32,914 nucleotides of DNA, from positions 1-32,914 of the forward strand of contig NZ_JACBXC010000008.1 in NCBI RefSeq assembly GCF_013870535.1. Direction: 5' to 3'. The number at the start of each line of letters is the position of its first letter. Position 1 is the first letter of the stretch. The translations under genes were made by a program, and so were the position numbers. The stretch is from Streptomyces phytophilus. GTDB lineage: Bacteria; Actinomycetota; Actinomycetes; Streptomycetales; Streptomycetaceae. This document shows, in pieces, positions 6,724 to 32,914 of this stretch. Below the pieces are notes generated by a model, which worked only from the letters and a program-made list of their open reading frames with translations, did not search any database and was not told the origin of the DNA.

Positions 6724-6856
6724 CCCACCCAGGCTCCAACCTCGCCCAGGCGCTCAGGCCCCGGCCACAGGCATTGCCCTGATGCGATGCTCAGCCGTGA
6801 AGTACGATCTCCGGCCGCCGCCGGGTGCCCTCACCGACAGCGATAAGGAATCTGCC
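6724..6856 (+). promoter_or_regulatory. Spacer before the second nucleosidase: candidate -10 and ribosome binding site
   Basis: TACGAT at 6803-6808 fits a -10 element, but the region 17-18 bp upstream has no good -35. AAGGAA at 6845-6850 is a good Shine-Dalgarno 6 bases before the TTG at 6857. The frame is open back to 6692 inside the preceding gene, and ATGs at 6782 and 6787 lack such a site. The 133 bp gap, against the overlap within the first pair, suggests that the second pair may have its own promoter. Confidence 0.3.
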
Positions 6857-8374
6857 TTGCACCAACCGAACAGCCCCCGTGTGGTGGTCCTGACCGCACT
6901 TCCTCTGGAGTACGAGGCGGTGCGCGTGCACCTGACGAACCTGGAGAGTGCAGAGCATGAGGCGGGGACCCGGATCGAGGAGGGCTCGCTGCCGGGCACG
7001 CCTTGGCGGGTGGCGATCGCCGAGCTCGGTGAGGGCATTACGAATGCCGCCGCCCTCACCGAGCGGATCAACTCATGGCTGAAGCCGGCCGCCCTGTTCT
7101 TCGTCGGAGTCGCCGGAGGTCTTAAGGACGGCGTCGAGCTCGGTGACGTCGTGGTTGCGACCAAGATCTACGCCTATCAAGGCGGCAAGCAGGACCCCGC
7201 CCAGTTCCTGGCCCGCCCGAACGCTTGGGACGCCTCCCACCGGCTTGAACAGGCCGCCCGTCATGCCCTGCGGTCCGACGAGTGGACCTCGCACATCCGC
7301 AGCCAGCGGCCACCGCGCCCGCCCGCCGTGCACCTCAAGCCCATCGCCTCCGGCGACGTCGTACTCAACTCAGCCGACAGTGCGCTCTCAGCCCAACTGC
7401 ACCACACGTACAACGACGCGGTGGCGATCGAGATGGAGAGCGCCGGCTTCGCCCGTGCGGCACACCTCGCCGACCAACTGCAGGCCCTCACAATCCGCGG
7501 CATCAGCGACAAGGCCGACGGCCTCAAGCACACGGCGGACGTGGGAGGAAGCCAGCCCCAGGCAGCCGCTCACGCCGCCGCAGCCGCCATCACCGTGATC
7601 ACGGCGCTCACACCCTCGACCTCGGCCTCCAACGCCTATCCCGCCGCCAATTCCGCGGAGGTCGGCACCGCGCGCACTCCGCACAACGGAGGTAGGCGGC
7701 CAACGGCCGACGGCTCGGGCCCCCAGTGGGAGCCGATGGCCGATGCCGTCGAGGTGAACTGGCGCAGAACGGGCCACAACTCACCCTTCAGCACGAGTGC
7801 GGCCGCCCTGGAGATCCATCTCGTCCCGGTCCCTTCCGGCAGCCGCATTGAGGTACGTAGACTGGCCCAGCTTGGTGACCAACTTATCCGCACCGGCCGG
7901 GAAGACGGCTTCTTCACTCTCTCCGAGCTGCTCGATACAGCTGCCGACGACCAGCACGCTCTGGTGACCACAGCGGGCGGTGGCCAAGGCACTACCGGAC
8001 TGGCAGTCCTGCGCACAGGACAACGCTCCGCATGGCAGCCGCTCCCCCACGACGGCATGGGAGCCGTACTCGACCCGGTTGAGCTGCCCCAGCAGATCGC
8101 CCGGCTACTGGCTCTCCTCCTCAGGTTGCCACTGCCCGACCCGCTGTCCGTCGCCCTGGGTATCGGTATCGATCCAGCCACCATGGTCAGCGAAGACACC
8201 ATGAGCCGCTTGCCCCGTAGCACGGCCCAGTTCCCGATGAGACACGACCTCTTGCGAGTCCACCCGGACGAATCGCTCACCATGAAGGAGCTGAACGCCA
8301 AGAGCGACAGCGTCGCCGAGGAGCTCGCTGCTCGCCTGCTCGCCAGCTTCCGTACCCCGCGCCGCAGTTTCTGA
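6857..8374 (+). CDS. MTAN/PNP_UDP_1-type nucleosidase 2 fused to an unrecognised C-terminal domain
   Basis: With the TTG start the protein has 505 residues. Residues 8 to about 255 are a paralogue of the nucleosidase at 1541-2476: VVVLTALPLEYEAV with E20, FVGVAGG, IEMESAG with M193-E194, and ISDKAD with D218, so the catalytic acids are present. It differs downstream: in place of the short tail with the RHIM-like motif, a low-complexity linker (about 255-287) leads to a ~215-residue globular domain beginning QWEPMADAVEVNW, which I do not recognise. It has alternating hydrophobic strands, a run of leucine-rich helix (QQIARLLALLLRLPLP) and a charged C-terminal helix. It is followed 24 bp later by the second STAND ATPase. 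Inference: a second effector whose coupling to its ATPase may use the new domain. The start is supported by AAGGAA at 6845-6850. Confidence 0.85.
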   Translation: MHQPNSPRVVVLTALPLEYEAVRVHLTNLESAEHEAGTRIEEGSLPGTPWRVAIAELGEGITNAAALTERINSWLKPAALFFVGVAGGLKDGVELGDVVVATKIYAYQGGKQDPAQFLARPNAWDASHRLEQAARHALRSDEWTSHIRSQRPPRPPAVHLKPIASGDVVLNSADSALSAQLHHTYNDAVAIEMESAGFARAAHLADQLQALTIRGISDKADGLKHTADVGGSQPQAAAHAAAAAITVITALTPSTSASNAYPAANSAEVGTARTPHNGGRRPTADGSGPQWEPMADAVEVNWRRTGHNSPFSTSAAALEIHLVPVPSGSRIEVRRLAQLGDQLIRTGREDGFFTLSELLDTAADDQHALVTTAGGGQGTTGLAVLRTGQRSAWQPLPHDGMGAVLDPVELPQQIARLLALLLRLPLPDPLSVALGIGIDPATMVSEDTMSRLPRSTAQFPMRHDLLRVHPDESLTMKELNAKSDSVAEELAARLLASFRTPRRSF

Positions 8375-8398
8375 CGTAGCCGAGAAGAAAGACGCACG

Positions 8399-11300
8399 AT
8401 GGACATGAAGAGCGGGCCAGGCGGTACGTCTCCTGACGCTACGGGCTCTGGCACCCACCCTTCTGTTCAGACGAACTCAGCGACGCACGGCGGCACGGCA
8501 AACGCAGTACAGAACGGCAATCTGACGGTTAATCAGTACTTTCACGCGGATCCCAGCGCGCCTAATCCGTGGCTCACACCGCAGGAAGCGTTCAACGATC
8601 CGCAGGCTGCCGCATACTTCAGCCATCATTGGGACCTGGTCGGACGGTCCGATCTCGTCGAACAACTGCTCTCCTTCGCCTTGGCTGATGACGACACCGA
8701 GGGCAGGATCGGTGTCCTCGTGGGCGCGGCGGGCGGCGGCAAGAGCCGTGTGCTGCAGACGCTCGCGGCAGAGTTCACCCGCCGCTCTGAAGGCGTCGTG
8801 CAAGTGCTGCTCGCCACCGAGGGCGTACATCAGCATGCTGTTGAGCAACTGCCTCAACACGACAGTCTGCTCGTCATCATCGAGGACGCCCACCAACGTC
8901 CCGACGAGTTGGCGGCGATCATCCGGGCACTCCGCCGTGAACGGCCCGGGGCCGTCCTGGTCGTCTCCACCCGACCGTCCGGCACGACAGTACTCAGGGG
9001 GACGTTCAGGCAGTTGCGGGTGGACGACGCGCGGGTTTCTACGTGGGAACTCGGCGAACTCTCGACGCAAGATGCCTCCCGCCTCGCAGAACAGGCGCTC
9101 GGCGAGGCAAAGCGGCACCTGGCTCGCCGGCTTGCCGCGACTGTGGGTGATTCACCGTTCCTACTGGTGTTCAGCGCGCTGGAGATCGCACGCGGCAGGC
9201 TCGATCCCCAGCGGATGGAGAGCGATGCCCGCCTGCACCGGGAGGTAGTGGAAGCGTTCATCGAAACGGCCCTGACGGACCCGGCGACGCGCGACCAGGA
9301 CCGAGCCGTGCTGCACACCGTCGCGGCGCTGCAGCCCGTGCGCACGGATGTCCCGCGCTTCGTCAAGTCCATGGCGGCACTGCTCGGCACCCCTGACAGC
9401 GTCCTTCAGGTCCAGCTGCGCCGGCTGGTGAGCAGCGGAGTGCTGGCACGCAGGGGTGCCTCGCACCGGATCCTTCCTGATCTCCTGGGCGATGTGCTGC
9501 TGGCCGAGGCCGCCATCAATCCGGACACCGGTGCCTCCACCGGCTTTCTCGAGCGCGTCCTGGCCGAGATCGACGGAGAACCGCTGACAAACGCACTGGT
9601 CAACGCTGGCCGAGTGGACTGGCAGTGGAGCCGGCTCAGGTCGACCGGCCGGTCCCCCTTCGAGCCGCTGTGGCACACCATCGAACAGGAGTACACCGAC
9701 GGCGATGCCTCGACCCGCAGCCAGCTCCTGAAAGTCATACGCAACATCGCCCCGTTCCAGCCACGGCGCGTCCTCGGCCTCCTGCGTCCAGAGGTGGAAG
9801 TCGGCCCGGCCGATGCGCCTCGCCTGCTGGACGACGTTCCTCCGGTGCTGGCTGCGGTTGCGCAGGACCCCGAGCATCTCGGTGAGGCCCTCGACCTGCT
9901 GTGGAAACTCGGACAGCACGACATGCGTCCCCTCCGCTCGTCCTCCCAGTCGGCACTGGGGCTATTGAGCGACCTCGCCTCCTACTCACCCGACAAGCCC
10001 TTGCTCTACCAGGAAGCGGTGGTCGAAGCGGTCGCCCGATGGGCGCAGCAAGGCCCGGTGCGCACCGCCGACCGAATGCCATTCGCCCTGCTGGGCCGGA
10101 TCTTCGAGCCCGTGGCGGAGGGACACGAGTTCGACGGCCGGACGCTCACCATCTCGCGTCTGCCGCTGCTGGCTGAGCGTGTGGCGCCGGTGCGCGACCG
10201 GGCGTACCGGGTACTGCTCGAGGCGTACGGCTCGGCGGACCGTATCAGGGCGGGCGTGGCGGCACGGAGTTTCGCGGAGGCTCTCAGCGGCCAGGTCGGG
10301 CAGTTCGCAGACTGGCTGGTGCCCGCACTGGAGGCGTTGGCGGCGCGCACACGTGAAGTCCGGCCCGGGCCGTTGGTGGCGCTGGCCGTGCGGCGGTCGG
10401 TCCACTGGCATGTGGCGTACGGCTCTCCGGATGCCGCGGCCGCAGCGCGCGTAGTCCTGGAAGCCCTGCCTGACTCGCTTCCGCACCGGCTTGCCGTACT
10501 GCTGCACAGCGACTGCCACGAATGGTCGGTAGGCGAGGACTACGACTACGAAGCGACCGAGAACAGCTGGAGCCGTCGACTGGCCGAGGCATCCTCCCAG
10601 GCCGCAGTTTGGGACGACGCCACGGCCTGGGACGCCTTGCGCGACCTGCTGGAGCAAGGGATACAGATATTCGCCGAGGCTCCGCCAGGTTGCACGGCCC
10701 TCATCGCCGGCATGGCCTCGGAACGACCTACGCATGCGGCGGCAATCATCCGCGGAGCCCTGGAGTGCAGCGACATCACAGCGGATCTCGTCCTTCCGCC
10801 AGCGTTGAAAGCCCTGTGGAAGGACGAGCCCGACACTGCCTGGCAGATGGCGGCGGAACTTGCGGACGCCAGTCGCGCCGCACCGGTCCGCGCCGTGCTC
10901 CGAGCCAGCGCGGCACGGCTGGCGGCAGGGGACGTACTGCATCCGCACGAACTCGCGATTGCCCGTCAGCTGGCCACCCGTGCCGACAGCGCCGTGGGCA
11001 CGGATGTCTTGCGCCTGGCCGTCTCGATGATCCGCAATGCGTCTTCGCGCGAAGACGCCATCGCGCTTGTCTGCTCAGTCCCGTTCTCCGGTCTGGCGCG
11101 CGGCGCGGCGGACTTCTGCTGGGCATTCATCGGCCCGGCCGGCCTGTCGTGGTCCGAGTTCACTCCGGAGCAACGGAAACGGTGTCTGGCGGAGTTGGCC
11201 AAGACACGGACGATCGATGACCATCGAGTCAAGTGGGCCGTCGCGGCTCTGTCGGATAGTCACGAGGACGAGGCATTGGACCTGCTACTGACCCGGCTGG

Positions 11301-11908
11301 AGTCGTGGGAGCAGGATCCCAAGCCGGGCTTCGATCCACTGCCCTTCGCCTGGCATGCTCGATCCCCCTTCAAGAACAGCCCGCGCCGCGTCGAGCTATT
11401 GCGGAGGCTGACGCGATGGTTCGAAGAAGAGCGTGAGCACCCATGGCGGCGCGAGCTGTACGGCACCAAGCTCTTCGCGACCGTCGCCGGAAACGTGTAC
11501 GACAGCGCCGCACGTGACGTGCTGCTGGAGGTGTTCAGGTCGGGTGAGCACCAGCGGATAGACGCTGTTGCGCCACTGCTGAGCGGCGCACATCGCGGAC
11601 TCCTCTGGGAGGAGACCCAGTTCGTGGCCGAGGTGCTGAGCGCCGCCGTCCAGCTCTCGGAGGAGCTGTACCGCAAGGTCGGCGGCAGGCTGATGAGCTC
11701 CGTGACAGACGGATCAAAATCGACCTCCCCCGGCGAACCGTACCCGCAAGATCTTGAAATCCTGCAGCGCGCCACGGAAATCCGGGCGACGCTGCGCGCC
11801 GGCTCTCCGGAGGAGCGGCTGTACGCCGCACTGCAGGACTACGCAAACACGCAGATCGACTCAGCCCGCAGAGAAGATTCCAATTTCGACGCCCGCCGAA
11901 CTTGGTGA
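8399..11908 (+). CDS. STAND/NLR-like P-loop ATPase 2 with N-terminal RHIM-like motif
   Basis: The protein has 1169 residues. Residues 24-48 carry the RHIM-like motif. GRSDLVEQLL precedes the ATPase core. Walker A is GAAGGGKS at 109-116 and Walker B is LVIIED at 158-163. A sensor strand VLVVSTRP follows, and ELGELSTQDASRLAEQAL is the helical lid typical of STAND ATPases. The rest is a long, probably alpha-helical region with many short Leu/Ala/Arg helices and no recognisable repeat family. Outside the motif the ATPase is not obviously close to the protein at 2473-6723, so the two sensors seem to have different histories. AGAAAG lies upstream of the ATG. Inference: sensor and scaffold of the second module. 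It could in principle also recruit the first nucleosidase, which carries the matching motif. Confidence 0.85.
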   Translation: MDMKSGPGGTSPDATGSGTHPSVQTNSATHGGTANAVQNGNLTVNQYFHADPSAPNPWLTPQEAFNDPQAAAYFSHHWDLVGRSDLVEQLLSFALADDDTEGRIGVLVGAAGGGKSRVLQTLAAEFTRRSEGVVQVLLATEGVHQHAVEQLPQHDSLLVIIEDAHQRPDELAAIIRALRRERPGAVLVVSTRPSGTTVLRGTFRQLRVDDARVSTWELGELSTQDASRLAEQALGEAKRHLARRLAATVGDSPFLLVFSALEIARGRLDPQRMESDARLHREVVEAFIETALTDPATRDQDRAVLHTVAALQPVRTDVPRFVKSMAALLGTPDSVLQVQLRRLVSSGVLARRGASHRILPDLLGDVLLAEAAINPDTGASTGFLERVLAEIDGEPLTNALVNAGRVDWQWSRLRSTGRSPFEPLWHTIEQEYTDGDASTRSQLLKVIRNIAPFQPRRVLGLLRPEVEVGPADAPRLLDDVPPVLAAVAQDPEHLGEALDLLWKLGQHDMRPLRSSSQSALGLLSDLASYSPDKPLLYQEAVVEAVARWAQQGPVRTADRMPFALLGRIFEPVAEGHEFDGRTLTISRLPLLAERVAPVRDRAYRVLLEAYGSADRIRAGVAARSFAEALSGQVGQFADWLVPALEALAARTREVRPGPLVALAVRRSVHWHVAYGSPDAAAAARVVLEALPDSLPHRLAVLLHSDCHEWSVGEDYDYEATENSWSRRLAEASSQAAVWDDATAWDALRDLLEQGIQIFAEAPPGCTALIAGMASERPTHAAAIIRGALECSDITADLVLPPALKALWKDEPDTAWQMAAELADASRAAPVRAVLRASAARLAAGDVLHPHELAIARQLATRADSAVGTDVLRLAVSMIRNASSREDAIALVCSVPFSGLARGAADFCWAFIGPAGLSWSEFTPEQRKRCLAELAKTRTIDDHRVKWAVAALSDSHEDEALDLLLTRLESWEQDPKPGFDPLPFAWHARSPFKNSPRRVELLRRLTRWFEEEREHPWRRELYGTKLFATVAGNVYDSAARDVLLEVFRSGEHQRIDAVAPLLSGAHRGLLWEETQFVAEVLSAAVQLSEELYRKVGGRLMSSVTDGSKSTSPGEPYPQDLEILQRATEIRATLRAGSPEERLYAALQDYANTQIDSARREDSNFDARRTW
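8468..8542 (+). other. RHIM-like/amyloid-type signalling motif, ATPase 2 copy (N-terminal)
   Basis: Residues 24-48 contain QTNSATHGG followed by TANAVQNGNLTVNQYF. It aligns without gaps to the first ATPase (2548-2619) and to the first effector's tail (2381-2449). The DNA differs at many synonymous sites between the copies, so the protein sequence rather than the DNA appears to be conserved. Confidence 0.75.
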
Positions 11909-13688: not shown

Positions 13689-13942
13689 ACCGCGTCCACG
13701 CTCTCTCAGCCTGCTGTCGCCGCCACCGAGGGCGACGACAGCCACCGGGTGCTGGTACAGCCGGTGGCGGACGGCGCGGGCTGGGTCGTGACCGCCACGG
13801 ACCTCGACCGGCGGAACGGCACGATCTCCCAGCTCGTCACCGTCAACGTGACGGTGAGCGGGATCGGCCTGCTCGTCCTGGCCGTCGACGCGGTACGCGA
13901 CGCCCGGCTCCTCGCGCCGGACCGCGGCGGACACGGCCTAGC
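13689..13942 (+). pseudogene. Sensor histidine kinase fragment
   Basis: The frame is open from 13689 and contains GDDSHRVLVQPVADGAGWVV, then TATDLDRRNGTISQLVTVNV, then a hydrophobic stretch around GIGLLVLAV. This matches the end of the extracytoplasmic sensor and the second membrane helix of streptomycete two-component sensor kinases. No HAMP, His-box or ATPase follows: the sequence drifts and is cut by the IS481 element, and the DNA beyond the element is not kinase-like. No start codon or N-terminal helix is evident upstream (a stop lies at 13686-13688), so both ends are missing. The interval 13530-13688 shows nothing I recognise. Confidence 0.55.
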
Positions 13943-14891
13943 TGTATTGCCCTGAGAGGTTCGGAACACGACTGGCGGGTGGCTGGCCTTTTAGCGCGGT
14001 GTGTCCGCGGTGGTGATTGTAGGTGTGCAGCCAGTGGGGGAATGCTTCGCGTCGTTCCTGCTCGCTGCGGTAGGGGCGGGCGTAGGCCCATTCATCGAGC
14101 AGGGTGCGGTTGAGGCGTTCGACCTTGCCGTTGGTCTGGGGCCGGTAGGGCCGGGTTCGCTTGTGGGCGATCTGGGCCTCCTGCAGCAGGTCACGCCAAT
14201 CACGTGAGCGATAGCAGGAGCCGTTGTCGGTCAGGACCCGCTCCACGGTGATCCCGGCCTGGACGAAGAAGGCGTGGGCCCGCTTCCAGAAGCCGGTGGC
14301 GGTCTCTTTCTTCTCGTCGGCGTGGATCTCGCTGTAGGCCAGGCGGGAGTGGTCGTCGACGGCGGTGTGCAGGTAGCTGTAGCCGGCATGGGCGCGGTTC
14401 TTGCGGCCCGCTTGCCGGCCCAGGGCCTTGTGCCCGCCGCCGTCGGGAATGTTGCCGAGCTTCTTGATGTCCACGTGCACCAGCTCGCCGGGGCGTTCGC
14501 GTTCGTAGCGGCGTATGCCCCGGCCGGTGGCCCGGTCCAGGTGTGCCAGGCGGGCCAGGCCGTAGCGGGTGAGTACCCGGTGCACGGTCGAGGGGACCAG
14601 GCGGAGGAGGTGCGCAATGCGGGCTGGGCCCCACCGGCGCAGCACGCGGACCTTGATGATGCGCCGCTCGGTGCGGGTCGGCGTCCGCCGCGGGCTGGTG
14701 CGCGGGCGGCTGGAGCGGTCGGCCATGCCCGCCTCGCCGTACAGCCGGTAGCAGTCGGCCCACCGCTGGGCGGTGCCCACGGAGACCTGGAACCGTTCGG
14801 CGGCCCGCCGCAACGGCCAGTTGTCGTCCACGACGCAGCGAGCCAGACGCAGACGGCCGGTCTCGGTCAGCGGTGCATTACGGTGAGGCAT
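13938..14891 (-). CDS. IS481-family transposase
   Basis: With the ATG at 14891 the protein has 317 residues. An N-terminal helix-turn-helix part, RRAAERFQVSVGTAQRW (29-44), is followed by a second HTH region with IAHLLRLVPSTVHRVLTRYG (92-111). The DDE/RNase H catalytic domain then shows D141 (HVDIKKLG), D222 (LTDNGSCY) and E258 (TNGKVERLNRT). The D222-E258 spacing is the standard D-35-E. The length is normal for the family and the frame is unbroken, so it is probably active. The frame could extend upstream, but MPHRNAPLTETGRLRLA is the usual N-terminus. The stop codon TAG lies in the CTAG target duplication outside the element. Confidence 0.93.
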   Translation of the reverse strand: MPHRNAPLTETGRLRLARCVVDDNWPLRRAAERFQVSVGTAQRWADCYRLYGEAGMADRSSRPRTSPRRTPTRTERRIIKVRVLRRWGPARIAHLLRLVPSTVHRVLTRYGLARLAHLDRATGRGIRRYERERPGELVHVDIKKLGNIPDGGGHKALGRQAGRKNRAHAGYSYLHTAVDDHSRLAYSEIHADEKKETATGFWKRAHAFFVQAGITVERVLTDNGSCYRSRDWRDLLQEAQIAHKRTRPYRPQTNGKVERLNRTLLDEWAYARPYRSEQERREAFPHWLHTYNHHRGHTALKGQPPASRVPNLSGQYS

Positions 14892-15014
14892 GAGGGCCTT
14901 TCTGGTCGCCGGTGCAGATCTCGCAATCCACACCGAGCCAGAAGGCCCTCACCCACATCAAGATCAGTCAGCCGTGACCCCTGTCACCATCCACAACCTC
15001 CCCGGACAGAACAA
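13942..15014 (-). mobile_element. IS481-family insertion sequence, apparently complete, with CTAG target duplication
   Basis: The element is about 1073 bp. The left end reads CTGTATTGCCCTGAGAGGTT. The right end, read on the other strand, is TTGTTCTGTCCGGGGAGGTT. About 17 of 24 positions match, giving imperfect terminal inverted repeats. CTAG flanks both ends (13938-13941 and 15015-15018) and is the likely 4 bp target duplication. One transposase gene fills most of the element on the minus strand. The element sits between a histidine-kinase fragment and the 3' end of a LysR gene. Confidence 0.75.
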
Positions 15015-23160: not shown

Positions 23161-24792
23161 ATGGACAGCCACCCCGGACGTGCCGACGCCGCGGCGACCC
23201 CGACCACAGCCGCGACCACGCATTGGCTCGCACTCGCCGACCACCTGGACGACGGTGCCACGTTCGACTACATCGTGTGCGGCGCCGGTTCGTCAGGTTC
23301 CGTTCTCGCAGGCAGGCTCGCGGCCGATCCGGCCGTCACGGTCCTGCTCGTCGAGAGCGGCGGCAGTGACGACGACGAGCGTGTCCGCAATCCCGACCTG
23401 TGGCCGGCCAACCTCGGCAGCGAGCGGACCTGGGACCACGTCACGGAGCCGAACCACCATCTGAACGGGCGCCGGCTCGCCTATGCCACAGGCCGCGGGC
23501 TGGGCGGGGGAGGCGCCGTCAACGCGGGTGTGTGGGCCCGAGGCCATCGCACCGACTGGGACTCCTACGCCGAGGCCACGGGCGATCCCGCGTGGGGCTA
23601 CGCGCACGTACTGGAGCACTACCGCGGCATCGAGGACTGGCAGGGCACGCCCGACCCCGAGCGCAGGGGGTCCGGCGGGCCGATGCGGATACGACCGTCG
23701 CAGGACGTGCATCCGCTCTTCACCGCCTTCCTCGACGCCGCCGAGGCCACCGGCATCCCCCGATTCGGCAGTGCCAACGGCGTCCTGATGGAGGCGAACT
23801 CCGGTGGCGCCGTGCGGGACGAGAACATCCACGACGGGGTGCGGCAGACCCCCTTCCGCCGCTACGTCGCAGACCGTCTGGGGCAGCCGAACCTGACGGT
23901 ACTGCCGCACACGACGGTCTCCCGCGTCCTGGTCTCCGCGGGCCGGGCCCGCGGCGTCGAACTCGTGCGCGACGGTCAGCAGCTGCGCGCTCGCGCGTCG
24001 CAGGAGGTGGTGCTGTCGCTGGGCGCGCTGAGCACCCCGGCCGTGCTGATGCGGTCCGGGATCGGGGACGAGCGCGAACTGCGGGACCTGGGCATCCCGG
24101 TGGTCCAGCACCTGCCCGGCGTCGGCCGCAACCTTGACGACCACATACGCCTGCCCTGCATCTGGGAGGCGACGGACGTACCGCTGCCGGTGCCCACACG
24201 CAGCCAGGCTGTCTGCTTCTGGGAAGACGAAACACGGCCAGGGGCACCGGAGTTCGTCATGTACCTCTCGCCGGCGCCGTCCGTCTCCACCGAGAACGCG
24301 GCGCAGTACCCGCCGCCGGAGAGGTGTTTCACCCTGATGCCTGCCATGCGCCCGCGCGACGGCAGCCGCGGCCGGGTCCGCCTGGCGAGCACGGACCCGA
24401 TGGCCGGACCGCGCATCGAGACGAACTTCCTCGCCGACCCCGACGACGTGCGCTCGGCCTTGTCCGCCGTCGCCAAGGCCCGGGAGGTCGGCAACTCCGC
24501 GGCGCTGCGCCCGTTCGTCGAGCGGGAGGTGTCCCCGGTGTCGTCGGTGACGGACACGGTGGAGGAGTTCGTGCGGAACGCCGTGGAAACCTTCTGGCAC
24601 CAGAGCGGTACGTCCCGGATGGGACGGGACGAGGGAGCCGTCGTGGACGCGAGGCTCAAGGTGTACGGCATCGAGGGCCTGCGCGTCGCCGATGCCTCGG
24701 TGCTGCCCCATGTGACGGTCGCCAACACCATGGCCCCTTCCATGGCGGTCGGCGAGCGGGCGGCCGAGATTCTCGCGGCCGAACAGGGCTGA
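23161..24792 (+). CDS. GMC-family FAD-dependent oxidoreductase (choline dehydrogenase-like)
   Basis: The protein has 543 residues; CAAGGAGA precedes the ATG. A ~33-residue N-terminal leader without export features leads to the FAD-binding site FDYIVCGAGSSGSVLAGRLA (35-54; GAGSSG at 41-46) and E65. The second GMC signature region, ATGRGLGGGGAVNAGVWARG, follows, and then the substrate domain. The active-site histidine is H480 in FWHQSGTSRMG, and N522 in VANTMAPSMAVGE is at the place of the second His/Asn. This fits an alcohol oxidase or dehydrogenase of the choline dehydrogenase subgroup. The alcohol oxidised cannot be told. It is probably in an operon with the HIT gene. Confidence 0.93.
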   Translation: MDSHPGRADAAATPTTAATTHWLALADHLDDGATFDYIVCGAGSSGSVLAGRLAADPAVTVLLVESGGSDDDERVRNPDLWPANLGSERTWDHVTEPNHHLNGRRLAYATGRGLGGGGAVNAGVWARGHRTDWDSYAEATGDPAWGYAHVLEHYRGIEDWQGTPDPERRGSGGPMRIRPSQDVHPLFTAFLDAAEATGIPRFGSANGVLMEANSGGAVRDENIHDGVRQTPFRRYVADRLGQPNLTVLPHTTVSRVLVSAGRARGVELVRDGQQLRARASQEVVLSLGALSTPAVLMRSGIGDERELRDLGIPVVQHLPGVGRNLDDHIRLPCIWEATDVPLPVPTRSQAVCFWEDETRPGAPEFVMYLSPAPSVSTENAAQYPPPERCFTLMPAMRPRDGSRGRVRLASTDPMAGPRIETNFLADPDDVRSALSAVAKAREVGNSAALRPFVEREVSPVSSVTDTVEEFVRNAVETFWHQSGTSRMGRDEGAVVDARLKVYGIEGLRVADASVLPHVTVANTMAPSMAVGERAAEILAAEQG

Positions 24793-25333: not shown

Positions 25334-27073
25334 ATGGGGTTCTTCGACGATCTGGTTTTCCCGGAGGAACCGGCTGCGGAACGGGCTGTGTTGGTCCGGC
25401 TGGGTCCGCCGGGTGAGGAGGTGGGGAGGTATGCGCCGCCGGTCGACTGGTATGCGCCGGGGCTGGTGCCGCACCTTGCGGTGGCGGGGGCCGGTCCGCA
25501 GGTCAGGGTGGTGGTGACGGGGTGGTCTGTGTGGCCGGGAGCGGCCACGTTGCATCTGGCCGTGTTCCGCAAGACGCGCCGGCGGGACGCGGACGCAAGC
25601 CGGCAGTCTGGTCTGCGTGTGGGCATGCTCTTCTCCGATGGCCGCCGTGTCACCTCGCTGGACGGTACGGTGCAGCGGCGGGTGCGGTACACGACGCCTC
25701 AGGGCCTGCCGGTCGATGCGGCCACGGAGCAGGCGACCGGGCTGATCCCGCTGGATCCCGGGCTGCAGCAGAGCCGTCGGTCTCTTTTCAAGACGGACGT
25801 CGATCTCTATCTTTCGGAACTCCCGCCGCCAGGTGAGACGCAGTTGGTGGTCGAGTGGCCGGACGAGGCCGTAGCCGAGACCCGCATCGCCGTTGACGCG
25901 GCGGCGTTGCATGCTGCGGCGGGGGCGGCGCTGGAGGTCTGGCCGGGGCTCGGGCCGGCGGATCTTTCTGGGCCGCCGGGCGCGTTCGCGTCCGTGGAGT
26001 TCAGCGGCCCGCCTCAGTTCCTGGCTCCGCCCCTGACCCGCCGTCAGTGTCAGATGCTGCGCCGCCAGGAAGAGGAGCGCCGACGCTATGTGCCGCGGGC
26101 CGACTGGGAGGAGGTGCGCTGGCAGGATTGGTCGGATGCCGTGGTGATACGAGCGAGGCTGGACGGAGGTGCCCCAGCTGACGCAGCTGTCGGCTGGCGC
26201 GGCGCCACCCCGCTGCACCTCGCGGCCGAGCACGGGTCGGGGGAGGCGGTGGCCGCGCTCCTGCCCCATGTCGCTCGGGTCGACGCGCGCGACGACGACG
26301 GGCGCACTGCGTTGTGGTTCGCCGCGTGCAGTGTGGACGAGGGCAGCGTCCGCGCGTTGCTCGACGCCGGTGCCGATGTGTGGACTCCGCAGCTCGGGCC
26401 GTGGTCGCCGGGTCGGCTGCTGCTCACGACGCGGCTCGCGCAGCTCGTGGCGGACCTGCCGGGTTCGGTGTTGCCGCCCGCGGAGGAAACCGTCGCCTTC
26501 CAGGCGGCGGACGCGCTCATCGCGGCCTTCGGCGGGCGAGAGCTGTGGATCGAGGGGCTCGGCATCGCCTTCGTGCGGGGTCTGGACGAGGACGAGCTGA
26601 TCCGACGGTTGGGCGCCGACCCCACGCACTGCCCGCGGGCAGCCCTGGAAGAGGCCCCATTCGACCCGACGGACTACGAGGAGTCCCTGCGCTTCGTGGG
26701 GGTCGCAAGCGTGCCGGGCGAACCAGGCGGCTGTGTGATCACCCAGCAGGGGTACATGCCCAGCGACAACGCCGTGCTGCGGGCGGTATCCCGGGGGACC
26801 TCCGCGTACGGCATCTACTACAACCCGAAGGGCGGCACGTTCGGCACCCTGGCCCGTGACGGTGAGATCGCGGACAGCGAGGAGATCGGACTGCGGCCGG
26901 CCGAGCAGGACCCGCCCGCCTACTGGCACTTCCGCTTCTGGCAGCGTGGGCGCACCTTTCCGTATGGTGCCAACACGCTCGCCTACGGCTGTGCCGCGGC
27001 CGGTCTGAAGATCAGCGACGGTCGGCAGGCAGCGGACCACCGCACTCCGCGTCGCTGGGTGGCGCTGCCATAG
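25334..27073 (+). CDS. Ankyrin-repeat protein with C-terminal DUF6461-like domain
   Basis: The protein has 579 residues. The N-terminal ~220 residues are a beta-rich part with WSVWPGAATLHLAVFRKTRR and a long 'ETQLVVEWPDEAVAETRI' strand region that I do not recognise. Residues about 288-350 hold two ankyrin repeats: RGATPLHLAAEHGSGEAVAA and DGRTALWFAACSVDEGSVRA. The C-terminal ~180 residues (LWIEGLGIAFVRGLDEDELI, then RRLGADPTHC) look like DUF6461, a family frequent in actinobacteria. There is no signal peptide. The ATG at 25334 has no convincing Shine-Dalgarno, so it may be translated from a leaderless or weak site. Role unknown; ankyrins suggest protein binding, perhaps in toxin-immunity or signalling. 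Confidence 0.85.
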   Translation: MGFFDDLVFPEEPAAERAVLVRLGPPGEEVGRYAPPVDWYAPGLVPHLAVAGAGPQVRVVVTGWSVWPGAATLHLAVFRKTRRRDADASRQSGLRVGMLFSDGRRVTSLDGTVQRRVRYTTPQGLPVDAATEQATGLIPLDPGLQQSRRSLFKTDVDLYLSELPPPGETQLVVEWPDEAVAETRIAVDAAALHAAAGAALEVWPGLGPADLSGPPGAFASVEFSGPPQFLAPPLTRRQCQMLRRQEEERRRYVPRADWEEVRWQDWSDAVVIRARLDGGAPADAAVGWRGATPLHLAAEHGSGEAVAALLPHVARVDARDDDGRTALWFAACSVDEGSVRALLDAGADVWTPQLGPWSPGRLLLTTRLAQLVADLPGSVLPPAEETVAFQAADALIAAFGGRELWIEGLGIAFVRGLDEDELIRRLGADPTHCPRAALEEAPFDPTDYEESLRFVGVASVPGEPGGCVITQQGYMPSDNAVLRAVSRGTSAYGIYYNPKGGTFGTLARDGEIADSEEIGLRPAEQDPPAYWHFRFWQRGRTFPYGANTLAYGCAAAGLKISDGRQAADHRTPRRWVALP

Positions 27074-27536
27074 AGACGCGGAGAACGGGCCCGGGGTAGA
27101 GATACTGACCCGGTGATCATGGTCCCTGCGGCTGTGTCGACCTTCTCTGCAACAGGTGAGCGCCACCTGTCAGTCCCCAGTACGCGGTCAGCCGGTCTGT
27201 GGTGGTGACGCTCTGATGGCGGTGCCCAGCTGGCGCCCTCAGTGCCCCTGCGTGGCCGGTGTCCGAGGCGCCCCGGGGTGTCGGCCGTGGGTGGGATCGG
27301 TCGAAGCGGTCTGGTTGTCGCAGGTGAGGTGTCTGACTTGTCACATGCGCTCATTCGGCAGTTTTTCTGTCGCCAGAAGCGAAGATCGAGAGTCTGTGGC
27401 TCGTCGTGGCGGTTCTATGGGTCGTGGTCGCTGCACGCGCCGGGTTGGGAAGGGCAGTGTGTCCCAGCAGGGGTGAGTAGGGGCGCTCATTGGTCCAGGC
27501 CCGGAATCGTCGGGTCGTAGAAGACAGGTGATGGGA
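27074..27536. other. Gene-free stretch with a perfect hairpin
   Basis: No frame here shows a domain or supported start. The visible structure is ACAGGTG-AGCGC-CACCTGT (27152-27170), a perfect 7 bp inverted repeat 79 bp after the ankyrin stop. It has no T-run, and could be a terminator for that gene or an operator. The bases just before 27537 hold GGTG (27527-27530) as a modest ribosome binding site for the EF-hand gene. Confidence 0.45.
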
Positions 27537-28070
27537 ATGCGCGATGAGGCCGCCAAGCGGGTCGAGCTGGTCTTCTCCCTTTTCGACGCCAACGGCAACG
27601 GAGTCATCGACTCCGGCGACTTCGACTTGATGGCGGGCCGTGTTCTGGAGGCGGCGGCCGCTTCGGACGGCGGTGCCAGGGCCGCTATCCGGGCCGCGTT
27701 CCGCCGCTACTGGACGACGTTGGCCTCTGAGCTGGACGCCAATGGTGACGGTGTGATCACGGTGGACGAGTTCCGGCCGTTCGTGCTCGACCCCGAGCGT
27801 TTCGGTCCTACGGTCGCCGAGTTCGCCGAGGCCCTCTCCGCGCTCGGCGACCCCGACGGGGACGGTCTGATCGAGCGCCCCCTTTTCGTATCGCTGATGG
27901 CGGCGATCGGCTTCGCGGAGGCGAACATCCACGCTCTCTTCGACGCCTTCGGTCCGGACGGCGAGGACCGCATCACCGTGGCTACTTGGGCCGCCGGCAT
28001 CGAGGATTACTATGCGCCGGATATGGCCGGGATCCCGGGCGACCAGTTGGTGGCTGCCGGGGCCGTCTGA
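27537..28070 (+). CDS. EF-hand calcium-binding protein (calerythrin-like)
   Basis: With the ATG at 27537 the protein has 177 residues; GTG 27528 and ATG 27531 are alternatives. There are four EF-hand positions. Loop 1, D17-D28 (DANGNGVIDSGD), and loop 2, D67-E78 (DANGDGVITVDE), have full ligand sets, although loop 1 ends in Asp instead of Glu. Loop 3, starting at D105 (DPDGDGLIERPL), has Leu at the last position and is weakened. A fourth near 139-150 (GPDGEDRITVAT) is degenerate. Its size and layout fit the cytosolic calcium buffers or sensors of actinobacteria related to calerythrin. It is convergent with the methyltransferase gene. Confidence 0.9.
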   Translation: MRDEAAKRVELVFSLFDANGNGVIDSGDFDLMAGRVLEAAAASDGGARAAIRAAFRRYWTTLASELDANGDGVITVDEFRPFVLDPERFGPTVAEFAEALSALGDPDGDGLIERPLFVSLMAAIGFAEANIHALFDAFGPDGEDRITVATWAAGIEDYYAPDMAGIPGDQLVAAGAV

Positions 28071-28148: not shown

Positions 28149-29138
28149 TCATGGCGAGGGTTTGTGCGCGAAGACCCACCGGTTTCCCTCCAGTGCGTCG
28201 TTGGGTTCGGGGAGGGGGCCGCGTCGGTGGCGGCGGGTGAAGTCGAAGGGCGTGTGCATGGAGGTGGACCAGCCCTTGGCCGTCAGGTTGCCCGCGGAGT
28301 CGGGTCGTGGCCCGTTGTCGAAGAGGTGGAGCAGGTCGATGCCGATCTGTTCTCGTGTCGCCGTGTAGATCGGGCTGTCGCGGTACGCCTGCTGGTCGTT
28401 TTCCAGCTTGGCCTCGAAGGCCAGAGCGCTGCCTCCGGTGGTCAGCCTGTCCACCGTGTCGATGAGGTACGTCTCGGCCGGGGCCGGCAGGTAGAAGAGG
28501 AGTCCTTCGGCCAGCCAGACGCTCGGTGCGGCCGGGTCGAAGCCGGCGGTGGTCAGTGCGGTGACCCAGCCCTCGCGCAGGTCGGCCGGTACGGGGACGC
28601 GCTTCGTCTTCGGGGTGGCCGGCAGGTCGGTGAGCACCCGTTGCTTGAAGGCCAGCACGCCTGCCCTGTCGATCTCGTAGACGACGCAGTCGGACGGCAG
28701 GTCCAGTCGGAAGGCGCGGGTGTCCAGCCCTGCTCCCAGCAGGACCACCTGGCGGGTGCCCGCGCCGGCCGACCGGAGGAGGAAGTCGTCGAGCGCCCTG
28801 GTCCGCAGGCCGAAGTAGCGGGCGAACCGCCCCCACAGCGGGTTGTCGTCCCCGTCCGGAGCCTGCTCGATGCGTACCGGCCAGTCCGCGCAGGCGGGGG
28901 CCGCGCGGACGAAGTGTTCGGCGTAGGTGTCCTGGGCCAGGCTGTCGTGGCGGTGGGTCTCGATGGCGCGTGCCGCGGCGACCAGGAGGGCAGTCAGGCC
29001 CACACCTGCGTGCATGCCTTCCTCGTCTGTGTGCTGGGGCGTCGTGCCTGCCATGCTTCCTCCGTGGGCGGAAGTGGGGGGTGCGGGGTGCTCACTCGCC
29101 GGCTGGGGTGGGTGCTCGGTGCCGCGTGCCTCGCTCAT
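28149..29138 (-). CDS. SAM-dependent methyltransferase (LCMT/TIGR00027 type)
   Basis: The protein has 329 residues from the ATG at 29138, which overlaps the upstream stop as ATGA and has GGAGAG in front. The first ~40 residues are Pro/Ser/Ala-rich. The catalytic domain has motif I VVLLGAGLDTRAFRL (131-145), the acidic residue in VVYEIDRAGVLAFK (152-165), and SVWLAEGLLFYLPA (206-219). These are the marks of the leucine carboxyl methyltransferase-like family, widespread in actinobacteria and often tied to secondary metabolism. It is the last gene of an operon with an alcohol dehydrogenase, an aldehyde dehydrogenase and an MfnB homologue. A carboxylate or hydroxyl of the pathway product is a reasonable but unproven substrate. 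Confidence 0.9.
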   Translation of the reverse strand: MSEARGTEHPPQPASEHPAPPTSAHGGSMAGTTPQHTDEEGMHAGVGLTALLVAAARAIETHRHDSLAQDTYAEHFVRAAPACADWPVRIEQAPDGDDNPLWGRFARYFGLRTRALDDFLLRSAGAGTRQVVLLGAGLDTRAFRLDLPSDCVVYEIDRAGVLAFKQRVLTDLPATPKTKRVPVPADLREGWVTALTTAGFDPAAPSVWLAEGLLFYLPAPAETYLIDTVDRLTTGGSALAFEAKLENDQQAYRDSPIYTATREQIGIDLLHLFDNGPRPDSAGNLTAKGWSTSMHTPFDFTRRHRRGPLPEPNDALEGNRWVFAHKPSP

Positions 29139-30241
29139 CGGTTCGTTCTCTCCGGGAGCAGGACGGGTTTGACCGTGCGGCCCGCGTCGCAGTCGCGTTC
29201 GGCCTCGTTGATGCCGGCCAGCGGGTAGGTGCGGATCAGCTGGTCGAAAGGGAAGCGGCCGGCCTGCCACAGTCCGATCAGCCGGGGTATCAGTACTCCG
29301 GGTACGGCGTCTCCTTCGCAGATGTGGCGGATGCTGCGGCCGCGGTCGAGCGTGCCCGGTTCGAGCGCCAGTGGGGTGTGCAGGCGTGCCACCAGGCCGA
29401 GGCTGCCGGTGGGGCGCAGGGCTTGGAGCGCTTTGTTGATGAGCGGAGGTGAGGCCGTGGTGTCCAGTGCGTACTGGGCGCCGCCGCCGGTCAGTCGCCG
29501 GATCCGTTCGGGCAGGTCGGGTGAGGTGGCAGGCAGGGGGGTCGCGCCGAACCGCTCGGCCGCAGCGAGCCTTTCGGGGTGCCGGTCGACGGCCACGGTC
29601 GGTGCGCCTGCGGCGGTGGCCGCCATCACCGCGGACAGGCCCACTGCTCCCGCGCCGAGGACCACGAGGGTGTCGCCGGGGCCTGCGCCGAAGGTGTTCA
29701 GTACGGCTCCGGCCCCGGTGAGGGAACCGCAGCCGAGGGGTCCGAGCAGTTCGAGCGGTAGTGCGGGGTCGACCCGTACGGCGTTGCGAGCCGGGACGAG
29801 GGCGTACTGGGCGAAGGAGGACTGCCCGAACCACCGGGGTGCCAGTGCTCTGCCGGTCGCGTCGGTGAGCCGCGGCGGTTCCTCCTTGCGCCCCCCGAAG
29901 AGGTTGAGGGAGGCGAAGGAGTCGCAGTAGGCCGGGGCCGCGGCGCGGCAGGTGCGGCAGTGTCCGCAGGAGTCGAAGCTCAGTACGACGTGGTCGCCGG
30001 TGGCGATCGCGGCGTCCGGGCCACCCCCCGTCCGCACCACGATGCCGGCGCCCTCGTGGCCGAGGACGGCGGGCACAGGGCTCCGGCCGGCGGATCGCCG
30101 GACCGCGAGATCGGTCCGGCACATCCCGGTGCCCGCGATCTCGACCAGGATCTCGCCGGCGGCGGGCTCGGTCCGCAAAACCACCTCCTCGACCGTGAAC
30201 GGGTTCGTGTACGAGCGCAGTACGGCTGCCTGGAACCTCAT
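29135..30241 (-). CDS. Zinc-dependent NAD(P) alcohol dehydrogenase
   Basis: The protein has 368 residues from the ATG at 30241, with AGGAG 8 bases upstream. It is a medium-chain dehydrogenase of class III/aryl-alcohol type. Catalytic zinc ligands are C41 (GMCRTD), H62-E63 (GHEGAG) and C171 (LGCG). The structural zinc loop has C92, C95, C98 and C106. The nucleotide fold starts LVVLGAGAVGLSAVMAA (193-209), and D at the end of VAVDRHPER suggests NAD. It lies 2 bp after the aldehyde dehydrogenase and overlaps the methyltransferase by 4 bp, so it belongs to one transcript. It would interconvert a primary (possibly furfuryl-type) alcohol and its aldehyde. Confidence 0.93.
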   Translation of the reverse strand: MRFQAAVLRSYTNPFTVEEVVLRTEPAAGEILVEIAGTGMCRTDLAVRRSAGRSPVPAVLGHEGAGIVVRTGGGPDAAIATGDHVVLSFDSCGHCRTCRAAAPAYCDSFASLNLFGGRKEEPPRLTDATGRALAPRWFGQSSFAQYALVPARNAVRVDPALPLELLGPLGCGSLTGAGAVLNTFGAGPGDTLVVLGAGAVGLSAVMAATAAGAPTVAVDRHPERLAAAERFGATPLPATSPDLPERIRRLTGGGAQYALDTTASPPLINKALQALRPTGSLGLVARLHTPLALEPGTLDRGRSIRHICEGDAVPGVLIPRLIGLWQAGRFPFDQLIRTYPLAGINEAERDCDAGRTVKPVLLPERTNR

Positions 30242-30243
30242 CG

Positions 30244-31644
30244 TCACGTCTCCTGGGGGCGGTGGACGACGAACGGCCGGAGGTTGCCGTACAGCCCCCA
30301 TGGCCCGCCCGCGACGCCGACCCCGCTGTCCTTGACGCCTGCGAAGGGCTGGGCGAGGGACAGTTCGGCGTGATGGTTGACCCAGGCTGTGCCGCATTCA
30401 AGCCGCTCGGCCACTGCCTCGGCCCGGTCGGGGTCGGTACTCCACACGGAGCCGCCCAGTCCGAAGCCGGTGCTGTTGGCGGCGTCGACGGCTTCGTCGA
30501 GGCTCCGGTACGGCAGTACCGGCAGCACCGGTCCGAATTGCTCCCCGGTCACCACCGGGCTGCCGGGCGGCACGTCGGTGAGGATCGTGGGAGCGAAGAA
30601 GTAGCCCGGCCGGTCCAGCCGGTGGCCGCCCGCCGCCGCCCGGGCGCCGTCCGCCAGAGCCTGCTGTGTGACGTGGTCGATCCGGGCCAGTTGCGGGGCG
30701 TTGCTGACGGGGCCCAGCCGGGTGTCCGGGTCGAGGCCGGGGCCGACGGCGACGGTCTTCGCGCGCTGGGCGAGGGCTTCGACGACCTCGGTGTGCAGCC
30801 GGGCGGGGGCGTAGACGCGTTTGACGGCCATGCAGACCTGCCCGCAGTTGCGAAACGCCGCCCAGAACAGCCGGTCCGCGATCCGGTCCACTTCGATGTC
30901 GTCCAGGAGGACGGCAGCGTCGTTGCCGCCCAGTTCCAAAGTGACCCGGGTGAGTGAGGCCGCCGCCGCTTGGGCGACGGCCCGCCCGGTGGGCACCGAA
31001 CCGGTGAAGGTGACGTGGCGGATGCCCGGATGGGATGCGAGGCGGGCGCCGAGGGGTTCGCGGCCGGTGACGACGGTCAGGACGTCCTCGGGCAGGGCGG
31101 TGGCAAGGACGGAGCCGAGCAGCCGGGTGGCCGAAGGGGTGAACGGGGAGGGTTTGAGGACCATGGTGTTGCCCGCCGCGAGCGCGGGCGCGAACTTGGC
31201 CGCCGCGAGTTGGAGGGGGAAGTTCCACGGCACGATCGCGGCGACGGGCCCCAGCGGGCGCCAGCGGATCTCGCTGCGCACCGGCCGGCCGTCGGCGATC
31301 CGCCGGGTTCGGGGGGCGAGGTCTGCGAAGTAGCACAGGCGGGCCGCGGTACGGGCGACTTCCGCGTACGACTCGGCCAGGGGCTTGCCCTGTTCCCGGG
31401 TGAGCAACCGGGCGAGGTCGTCGCCGGCGGCCTCCACCGCGTCGGCCGCCTCGCGCAACGCGGCGGTGCGTGCGGCGGGGTCGGCCCGCCAGCCGTGCCA
31501 GGCCCGGTGGGCCCGGTCGACCGCGGTGTCCAACTCGTCCGGCTGCTGATCGGGAGCCTCGTCGAAAGGTTCCCCGGTGGCCGGGTCGACGACGGCGAAG
31601 GGTGCGGCCAGGTATCCGGCGCGCTCGGCCTCGGAGGTCGGCAT
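30244..31644 (-). CDS. Aldehyde dehydrogenase family protein
   Basis: The protein has 466 residues. Motifs of the ALDH superfamily are all present: PWNFP with N141, KPSPFTP (164-170), the GS-loop FTGSVPTGR, the general base E237 in LELGGND, and the nucleophile C271 in NCGQVCMAVKR. It would oxidise an aldehyde to an acid with NAD(P). The length is slightly short of the usual ~480. The closest type by eye is the broad succinate-semialdehyde/betaine-aldehyde group. It starts 8 bp after the MfnB-like gene and ends 2 bp before the alcohol dehydrogenase, so it shares their transcript. A formylfuran intermediate is a natural guess for the substrate. Confidence 0.93.
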   Translation of the reverse strand: MPTSEAERAGYLAAPFAVVDPATGEPFDEAPDQQPDELDTAVDRAHRAWHGWRADPAARTAALREAADAVEAAGDDLARLLTREQGKPLAESYAEVARTAARLCYFADLAPRTRRIADGRPVRSEIRWRPLGPVAAIVPWNFPLQLAAAKFAPALAAGNTMVLKPSPFTPSATRLLGSVLATALPEDVLTVVTGREPLGARLASHPGIRHVTFTGSVPTGRAVAQAAAASLTRVTLELGGNDAAVLLDDIEVDRIADRLFWAAFRNCGQVCMAVKRVYAPARLHTEVVEALAQRAKTVAVGPGLDPDTRLGPVSNAPQLARIDHVTQQALADGARAAAGGHRLDRPGYFFAPTILTDVPPGSPVVTGEQFGPVLPVLPYRSLDEAVDAANSTGFGLGGSVWSTDPDRAEAVAERLECGTAWVNHHAELSLAQPFAGVKDSGVGVAGGPWGLYGNLRPFVVHRPQET

Positions 31645-31652
31645 GGCGGCGG

Positions 31653-32408
31653 TCAGTGCATGGAGGAGACGCCGGCGGTGTGTTCTGTGGCGTGCCGGTC
31701 CATCTCCGCCCGGAAGGCGGCCACCAGATGCGGCTGGATCCTTCCGGTATTGCGGTCGCCGCCCTCGCAGACCGCTCCCCGCACGCCCACGATGTCCGTG
31801 CCGATGCGGGTCAGCGGGCCGAGGTCGGCCTGCGTGACGCTGCCCGCGAGGGCCGCGAGGCGGCTGGAGGCGTGGGTGAGCCGGACGAACTCCGCGCAGA
31901 CGTCCGGCGGAACGTGGTCGAACAGCCGCGTCCCGTCCTTGACGGCGGTGTCGAGCATGGCCGCGTCGGCGCCGGACCGGGCGGTGATGTCGGGCACGGC
32001 GAGCGGGTTGACGCAGCCGATCCGGTGGGCGTCGGCGTAGCCCGAGGCGACGACGAGCGCGTCGGGGCGGTGGTCCTTCACCGCCCGGACGACCGCGCGC
32101 ATGACCTCGATGCCCTGATCAGGTGTCGTGCAGCCGTAGAGGCCGACCTTGATGTACGTGGCCCCCGAGACGGCCGCGCCGAGTGCGGCCTGGGCCACTG
32201 TGCCGGGCTTGTACGGGACGTCCCCCACGGTCGCGGATACCGGTGTGTCCGCCGGGACGGCGTCGCGGATCTCCCTGATGACCCAGGGGAAGTTCGCGCC
32301 GAGCGAGCCTTCGTCGGGCTTCTTGACGTCGACGATGTCGAGATACTCCGCCGCCTTCGCGCAGTCGAGAGCCTCCTCGACACTGTCCGGGGAGATGAGA
32401 AGCAACAC
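31653..32408 (-). CDS. mfnB: (5-formylfuran-3-yl)methyl phosphate synthase (MfnB family)
   Basis: The protein has 251 residues from the GTG at 32408, which has a strong AAGGAGG 5 bases upstream. The frame continues left to an ATG at 32498, but MfnB proteins begin with 'LLLISP'. The family makes (5-formylfuran-3-yl)methyl phosphate from two glyceraldehyde-3-phosphates through a Lys Schiff base, known from methanofuran synthesis in methanogens. K29 ([11 protein letters not shown]), K87 (YIKVGLYG), D153 and K157 (LDTAVKDG) sit at a constant +2 offset from K27, K85, D151 and K155 of the Methanocaldococcus jannaschii enzyme, and ALAGSV plus [10 protein letters not shown] are also conserved. It should be active. 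Its operon with two dehydrogenases and a methyltransferase suggests a furan product rather than methanofuran. Confidence 0.93.
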
Positions 32409-32681
32409 CCTGGCCTCCTTCGCCGCCGGTCCGCCCGGCCGAGGGGCAGGGGGCCCGGATCGCCTGGCTGATGTACGTGCGCTCATCATTTCCGTCACCC
32501 TTGGGAACCGGGAGGGCGCACAGAGTGCCCAGGGTGCTCATGCCTACGCATGACGCGCCGTACATACCGCGGCAAATTGACCACAGGTGATGATTCTTCT
32601 GGTTGGTGAGTAGTTGGTGGCATGGGTGATGATTGCGCTTCGGCTCGATCACGCAGCCGGTCGACGCTGCGCCCGCGGGGT
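32409..32681 (-). promoter_or_regulatory. Leader of the mfnB operon with direct repeats
   Basis: There is no gene here. GGTGATGATT occurs twice (32586-32595 and 32625-32634), 39 bp apart, in a less GC-rich stretch, with GTTGGTG also repeated between them (about 32602-32608 and 32613-32619). This may be a regulator site or the promoter region of the operon. I could not place a convincing -35/-10 pair. Confidence 0.3.
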
Positions 32682-32914
32682 TCAGGTGAGGTCGACGTCG
32701 AGGTGGTCGATGTCGGTGACGGTGACCTCCAGGCCGGCGGCGCGGCGGCCGCGGTCCTGGAAGTAGGCGTGCCCGAGGCCGGCGCCGAGGAGGTCCCGCA
32801 GTTCCGCCTCACCGGCGCCGGCGGCGTGCCGGGCGAGGAGCCGGGCGGTGGTGTCCGGGGGGAGTTGTTCGGTGATGCGGCGCATCCGCGGGTCGTCGGT
32901 CGAGCCCGGGGCGG
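32682..32914 (-). CDS. C-terminal part of an unrecognised protein (cut by window edge)
   Basis: The minus-strand frame is open from the window edge to the TGA at 32682-32684. It encodes about 76 residues including LPPDTTARLLARHAAGAGEA, then ELRDLLGAGLGHAYFQDRG and a beta-like end GLEVTVTDIDHLDVDL. An internal ATG at 32885 exists but lacks support, and the frame reads on past it. I do not recognise the family. It lies upstream of the mfnB operon on the same strand, about 270 bp away, so it may or may not belong to it. Confidence 0.5.
   Translation of the reverse strand, partial: APGSTDDPRMRRITEQLPPDTTARLLARHAAGAGEAELRDLLGAGLGHAYFQDRGRRAAGLEVTVTDIDHLDVDLT

Follow-up and report, generated by a model that had tools for sequence, protein, structure and literature searches.

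A mobile mfnB-headed cassette of Streptomyces with an EF-hand partner: a candidate route to small methyl-esterified furans

MfnB, an enzyme known from coenzyme synthesis, needs only one active site to turn two trioses into an aromatic furan. A homologue of its gene heads a four-gene operon in Streptomyces phytophilus (NCBI RefSeq assembly GCF_013870535.1), near the end of a stretch of 32,914 nucleotides (contig NZ_JACBXC010000008.1, positions 1 to 32,914 of the forward strand) referred to below as the window. Together with a convergent EF-hand gene, which belongs to it, the operon forms a discrete, horizontally mobile unit that is widespread in the Streptomycetaceae and is not a one-strain oddity. 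On balance, and with confidence a little better than even, we read this unit as a self-contained mini biosynthetic cassette that makes a small methyl-esterified furan, with the EF-hand protein as a partner. Its features are:

31653..32408, minus strand: mfnB homologue, predicted (5-formylfuran-3-yl)methyl phosphate (4-HFC-P) synthase; 251 aa, GTG start; PF04476, NF002573
30244..31644, minus strand: aldehyde dehydrogenase (ALDH); 466 aa; PF00171; optional member
29135..30241, minus strand: zinc alcohol dehydrogenase (ADH), aryl (benzyl) alcohol dehydrogenase-like; 368 aa; PF08240/PF00107
28149..29138, minus strand: LCMT-family S-adenosylmethionine (SAM) methyltransferase; up to 329 aa; PF04072, TIGR00027
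27528..28070, plus strand: EF-hand (calerythrin-like) protein; 180 aa, convergent with the operon; EF-hand Pfams
32454..32525, minus strand: conserved leader/promoter-like element upstream of mfnB; core of the GGAAATGATGAGC type

The genes are ordered mfnB, ALDH, ADH and methyltransferase; the first three are separated by 8 and 2 bp, and the last two overlap by 4 bp (ATGA). The tight linkage described in the first-pass annotation of this DNA is thus exactly what the open reading frames and the sequence give. That annotation ended the operon at 28149, a span that holds for the four genes and leaves out the convergent EF-hand gene at 27528–28070. The GTG start of mfnB is preceded by GGAGG; in-frame upstream starts reach 32498 and the family match starts at 32402. 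The methyltransferase could alternatively begin at 29054, an internal start, and the contig stops about 500 bp upstream of mfnB. Pfam E-values are 1e-76 (4HFCP_synth), 1e-137 (Aldedh), 1e-19 and 5e-22 (ADH_N and ADH_zinc_N) and 9e-53 (LCM).

The first step, formation of the furan, is well supported by the sequence of the MfnB homologue. The protein scores 258 bits against PF04476 (cut-off 22.4) and passes the NCBIfam equivalog NF002573 (389 bits, cut-off 341). It shares 58.5% identity (134/229) with MJ1099 of Methanocaldococcus jannaschii. All four catalytic residues claimed earlier are present: D27, K29, K87 and D153 align with D25, K27, K85 and D151 of MJ1099, of which D25, K85 and D151 are presumably the active-site residues that accompany the lysine K27, and none of the four positions falls below 97% conservation among 134 sequences. 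Lys27 is described as the Schiff-base lysine of MfnB, and the fold as a class I aldolase-like TIM barrel (PMC6604932). Identity to the MfnB of two other actinobacterial genomes is 45%, and to proteobacterial plasmid copies, among the matches listed, 29–36%. Because the identity to MJ1099 exceeds that to these other bacterial copies, an archaeal-like source is suggested for the streptomycete gene. The name mfnB is already attached to the cassette gene in public plasmid records. S. coelicolor SCO6440, matched here by name alone, is called mfnB and reported as up-regulated in an abrB1/B2 mutant (PMC7581861), and the putative DNA-binding protein SCO6439 is reported to increase upon acid shock (PMC2631018).

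PF04476 occurs in 70 of 295 Streptomyces genomes, a count from which three weak matches of 31–35 bits (G079, G107, G227) were removed out of 73 and in which G223, where mfnB is split into two pieces, was retained. It occurs in 22 of 121 Streptomycetaceae (one weak match, G776, left out of 23), and across the phylum 5 of 396 genomes exceed the cut-off, three of them Streptomyces. The best 80 of the 264 genome-scan loci come from Streptomyces, Kitasatospora and Actinacidiphila. Merging of loci whose MfnB proteins have the same C-terminal part left 133 non-redundant loci; without L187, which is not of the streptomycete type, there are 132, and without 11 truncated less than 4.5 kb downstream of the gene, 121. 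Within 12 genes of mfnB, the recurrent clusters in the 133 loci are ADH (125), methyltransferase (125), ALDH (116) and EF-hand (59), and the next most frequent is found in 12, which rules out a larger biosynthetic cluster or a dedicated regulator as a recurrent neighbour. Genes in the fetched loci were called by codon usage, which overlooked some (for example in L138); they were therefore recounted by tblastn. In this recount ADH and methyltransferase lie next to mfnB in all 121 loci and an unbroken ALDH in 108. The methyltransferase is flipped in nine loci and still adjoins ADH.

At the genome level, ADH is found in 70/70 mfnB genomes at 76–100% identity (the next best among the matches listed reaches 52%), and the methyltransferase in 70/70 at 67–100%. 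In these searches the best six or seven first-look candidates per genome were scored, and absence of an orthologue rests on that ranking. Such co-occurrence with mfnB is as expected of one pathway. Relatives of the methyltransferase (E 1e-60 or better) occur in 16 of 225 mfnB-less genomes, at no more than 65% identity in that search. Only a narrow margin separates the methyltransferases of mfnB carriers from those of other genomes (67% versus 65%), and blastp finds an mfnB-less copy at 69% over 286 residues.

The mobility of the cassette is seen in its locations. On contigs above 6.5 Mb it lies in the outer 15% at either end for 16 of 24 carriers. Thirteen streptomycete plasmid records carry mfnB, all with the methyltransferase within 4 kb. 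On one plasmid of 70 kb, cassette and EF-hand gene stand beside Tn3 transposase genes, and a second plasmid carrying both is linear, with a MOBP relaxase. Carriage by phages was considered and ruled out, no phage record being matched. An IS481-type integrase/transposase gene is present on the same contig as the cassette of the window (13938–14933, minus strand). The EF-hand gene is adjoined by a gene for an ankyrin-repeat/DUF6461 protein (25334–27073, plus strand), and an S. zaomyceticus plasmid likewise has an ankyrin-repeat gene, at about 5 kb from its cassette.

The families of the partner enzymes suit redox chemistry and methylation of an aryl-type aldehyde or alcohol, much as the first-pass annotation had supposed. 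The closest solved chains to ADH are 5tnx and benzyl alcohol dehydrogenase 1f8f, the latter being the nearest with a named substrate, and this suggests an aryl-type alcohol or aldehyde as substrate. For ALDH they are 8yen, then phenylacetaldehyde dehydrogenase 4o5h. The two genes recall benzyl alcohol dehydrogenase/benzaldehyde dehydrogenase pairs of the XylB/XylC type, but differ from them in adjoining a furan synthase and a methyltransferase. The methyltransferase scores above the PF04072 gathering threshold, also matches TIGR00027 and is predicted to have an LCMT-type fold (mean pLDDT of the model 89.8). In family and predicted fold it resembles ML2640 and Rv0731c, then LCMT1, PPM1 and TYW4. 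LCMT1 and PPM1 are labelled as carboxyl methyltransferases in their records, TYW4 also acts on a carboxyl group, and TcmP is counted among the LCMT/TIGR00027 enzymes. Because the fold is common to carboxyl methyltransferases, a carboxylate is a first guess at the acceptor. Pairwise dN/dS medians of 0.13–0.25 across the four cassette genes indicate that they are mostly under purifying selection.

A plausible pathway can be drawn from these assignments. By homology to the characterised enzyme, MfnB would condense two molecules of glyceraldehyde-3-phosphate into 4-(hydroxymethyl)furfural phosphate (4-HFC-P). A housekeeping phosphatase of the host, none being encoded in the cassette, would release the alcohol, and the aryl-alcohol-type ADH would interconvert furan alcohol and aldehyde. 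An aldehyde would be oxidised to a furoic acid by the cassette ALDH or, where this has been lost, by another cellular ALDH. The methyltransferase would then cap the carboxylate to give a small neutral methyl ester, for which methyl 4-(hydroxymethyl)furan-2-carboxylate and a methyl ester of furan-2,4-dicarboxylic acid are candidates. In this step the EF-hand protein would act as a functional partner, as its co-occurrence with the methyltransferase suggests, perhaps in the role of a calcium-responsive binder or regulator. For comparison, Streptomyces strains are reported to yield furans of the 2,5-type, namely bis(hydroxymethyl)furan, its acetyl esters and acetals of 5-hydroxymethylfurfural (HMF), and the authors of that report state that they knew of no natural 2,5-furan oxidised as far as a formyl acid or a diacid (PMC9966152). 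The methylenomycin furans (2-alkyl-4-hydroxymethylfuran-3-carboxylic acids, AHFCA; mmfLHP) are likewise small Streptomyces molecules of the 4-hydroxymethylfuran type that contain one triose unit (PMC6604932). Their route differs in that MmfL performs a condensation with a beta-ketoacyl unit; no gene for an AfsA/MmfL-type synthase or a receptor is among the recurrent cassette members in the clusters of the 133 loci, no AfsA model having been run.

Of 131 loci, 119 carry the conserved element upstream of mfnB with 16 or more of 24 matches, at a median of 86 bp (54–157) before the start. A position weight matrix built from it has no match above 15 bits in the 45 mfnB-less loci L189–L233, a threshold that a few of the training sites also fail to reach; on this result the idea was rejected that the mfnB loci share their regulatory element with the loci described below that have the EF-hand gene only or are of the isocitrate dehydrogenase (IDH) type. 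A known RNA leader was also ruled out, no Rfam family matching positions 32000–32914. Conservation of the element may in part be due to common descent.

Several observations weigh against the proposed methyl-esterified furan. One concerns ALDH, which is broken or missing in 13 of the 121 loci, mostly beside intact MfnB, ADH and methyltransferase, and is the cassette gene most often lost. A few of the 13 are weaker cases: L040 has a single frame break, possibly a sequencing error, ADH is broken too in L101 and L173, and in L101 mfnB and methyltransferase are broken as well, so that in some loci the entire cassette is decaying. In a tree built from 123 loci with full-length called MfnB, ADH and methyltransferase, the 11 loci without a full ALDH need nine changes; a second count on the tree, made against EF-labelled loci, gives at least five changes forced by well supported branches. 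Moreover, the methyltransferase shows no visible relaxation after ALDH loss, though an ester would need ALDH if it acted in cis. Median dN/dS between the 11 ALDH-less loci and their nearest ALDH-bearing relatives is 0.15 for MfnB, 0.23 for ADH and 0.25 for the methyltransferase, as against 0.13, 0.23 and 0.25 in 40 ALDH-bearing pairs; being pairwise, these values also cover the time before the loss and are supportive, not decisive. The pathway seems to keep its value without a local ALDH: either another cellular ALDH substitutes, or the cassette enzyme leads to a side product on a branch. Because the gene is repeatedly lost, oxidation of the formyl group by this ALDH, one of the roles first assigned to the partners, cannot be a fixed step, and a strictly linear scheme of the kind drawn in the first-pass annotation is weakened. 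Further points on this side are that membership in the LCMT family leaves the acceptor unfixed, that no phosphatase or exporter recurs near mfnB in the 133 loci, that 17 of the 70 mfnB genomes have no EF-hand match (E 1e-30 search), and that one mfnB-less plasmid has a methyltransferase of 81% identity with an EF-hand gene, ALDH being gone and ADH truncated. The methyltransferase pairs with EF-hand genes in other mfnB-less settings too, so that its substrate may be a different one.

These pairings bear on the best of the alternatives. By tblastn, 58 of the 121 loci have an EF-hand gene no more than 7 kb from mfnB. In the 295 genomes, EF-hand matches (E 1e-30 or better) number 70, of which 67 also have the methyltransferase, as against 19 of 225 EF-negative genomes; three EF-positive genomes are without a methyltransferase match. 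Fisher's test gives 9.5e-45 for this co-occurrence, with the relatedness of the genomes ignored. Seventeen further loci with methyltransferase relatives, 15 of them from mfnB-less genomes, extend the picture: nine have an operon of EF-hand, isocitrate-dehydrogenase-like, isochorismatase-like and methyltransferase genes, five have EF-hand and methyltransferase alone, one (L202) is a variant with the EF-hand domain inside a longer open reading frame, and two have no EF-hand. An EF-hand/IDH-like fusion in L202 is not supported, the rest of the frame giving no match to the IDH-like protein. The IDH-type operons (L192–L199 and L205, at about 5–13 kb within each) constitute a second conserved cassette of Streptomyces without mfnB, which, beside the EF-hand protein, encodes an isocitrate/isopropylmalate-dehydrogenase-like protein of 366 aa, an isochorismatase-like hydrolase of 214 aa and an LCMT methyltransferase.

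The EF-hand gene is placed in the unit because it co-occurs with the methyltransferase, also in mfnB-less cassettes, and the two look like a stable pair whose supply enzymes are swapped. Such recurrence favours the view that methyltransferase and EF-hand protein are a module of their own, for instance for calcium-linked carboxyl methylation of a protein or of varied small acids, with mfnB–ALDH–ADH as one of several interchangeable supply modules. We regard this as a real but less likely possibility. ADH, however, tracks mfnB exactly in the sampled genomes, as one pathway would. The 17 mfnB genomes without an EF-hand match also count against a separate module: among the other 53, the EF-hand gene is within 10 kb of mfnB in 28 and elsewhere in 25, that is, not within this distance on the same contig (in G162 at least, the separation is due solely to a contig break). 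Several unlinked EF-hand genes have a common context, as in L207–L210 and L212–L215, and part of the association may therefore be ancestry. The partnership is not obligatory, because EF-only and methyltransferase-only genomes exist.

Among solved structures the EF-hand protein matches calerythrin (1nya, E 8e-8), and a chain of juvenile hormone diol kinase scores best (3e-10). It shares its EF-hand Pfams with calerythrin-like proteins and differs from them in belonging to a mobile biosynthetic unit; its gene evolves more loosely than those of the enzymes (median dN/dS 0.31, 58 pairs). On a broader and somewhat more speculative view, Streptomyces would have a family of mobile mini-clusters with an EF-hand/LCMT-methyltransferase core and swappable supply enzymes, making calcium-linked methyl-ester signals or volatiles, and the furan version would have recruited an archaeal-like ring synthase to give a 2,4-substituted furan.

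It is improbable that the MfnB homologue has been repurposed towards a product other than the furan phosphate, for instance by halting at a simpler aldol product. The aldolase-like barrel (PMC6604932) would lend itself to this, and no activity data on a streptomycete MfnB were found in open-licence PubMed Central papers. On the other side stand the closeness to MJ1099, the score over the equivalog cut-off and the retention of the whole Lys/Asp set.

A methanofuran- or methylofuran-like coenzyme is a very unlikely product. In its favour are the function of mfnB, which is described in methanofuran synthesis (PMC6604932), and two non-streptomycete actinobacterial mfnB genes (L185 and L187) that adjoin an amino-acid-kinase gene, with ATP-grasp and GXGXG-domain genes also in L185. 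These two are probable methanofuran loci in Actinomycetota. The genome search for further methanofuran genes found neither the MfnF-type family TIGR03123 nor FTR (PF01913) in any of the 70 carrier genomes, both families being positive in two methanogen controls, and the coenzyme is unlikely because these families are absent from all carriers. The lack of any recurrent additional gene besides EF-hand points the same way. The streptomycete unit thus shares with the archaeal pathway its ring-forming enzyme and catalytic residues and differs from it in its partners: ALDH, ADH, a carboxyl-type methyltransferase and the EF-hand protein. Equally implausible is an operon for furfural detoxification or catabolism, which ALDH and the aryl-type ADH would suit, since MfnB is a synthase using phosphorylated trioses, ALDH is the member most frequently lost and catabolism would need no carboxyl-type methyltransferase.

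Among other genes of the window, a GMC oxidoreductase (23161–24792, plus strand), about 3.4 kb from the cassette, was considered as an HMF-oxidase-like partner, HMF oxidases belonging to the GMC superfamily, and was ruled out as it is not a recurrent neighbour. At 1541–11908 (plus strand), two genes with nucleoside-phosphorylase (PNP_UDP_1) domains alternate with those of two large AAA/STAND-type NTPases (1416 and 1169 aa). The PNP_UDP_1-domain proteins match PADLOC effector models, and the region may be a defence locus.

The earlier proposal of a furan operon making an undescribed small metabolite is thus partly supported: a furan operon outside methanofuran synthesis is well supported by an equivalog-level MfnB, and the metabolite stays a prediction from sequence. 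In searches of open-licence PubMed Central papers neither the cassette nor its product was found described, subscription papers and patents being outside this coverage. Within the literature covered, the use of MfnB for something other than coenzyme synthesis, the dispensability of ALDH and the pairing of EF-hand protein and methyltransferase appear undescribed; the underlying enzyme chemistry is already known. Small furans are antibiotic inducers in Streptomyces. If the proposed reading is true, the streptomycete MfnB cassette would be a route to furan natural products that uses neither a polyketide nor a gamma-butyrolactone (GBL) synthase, and would open natural routes to 2,4-furan carboxylates, which are of interest to industry. 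Because it links a carboxyl-type methyltransferase to an EF-hand protein, the unit also offers a concrete handle on the calcium biology of Streptomyces.

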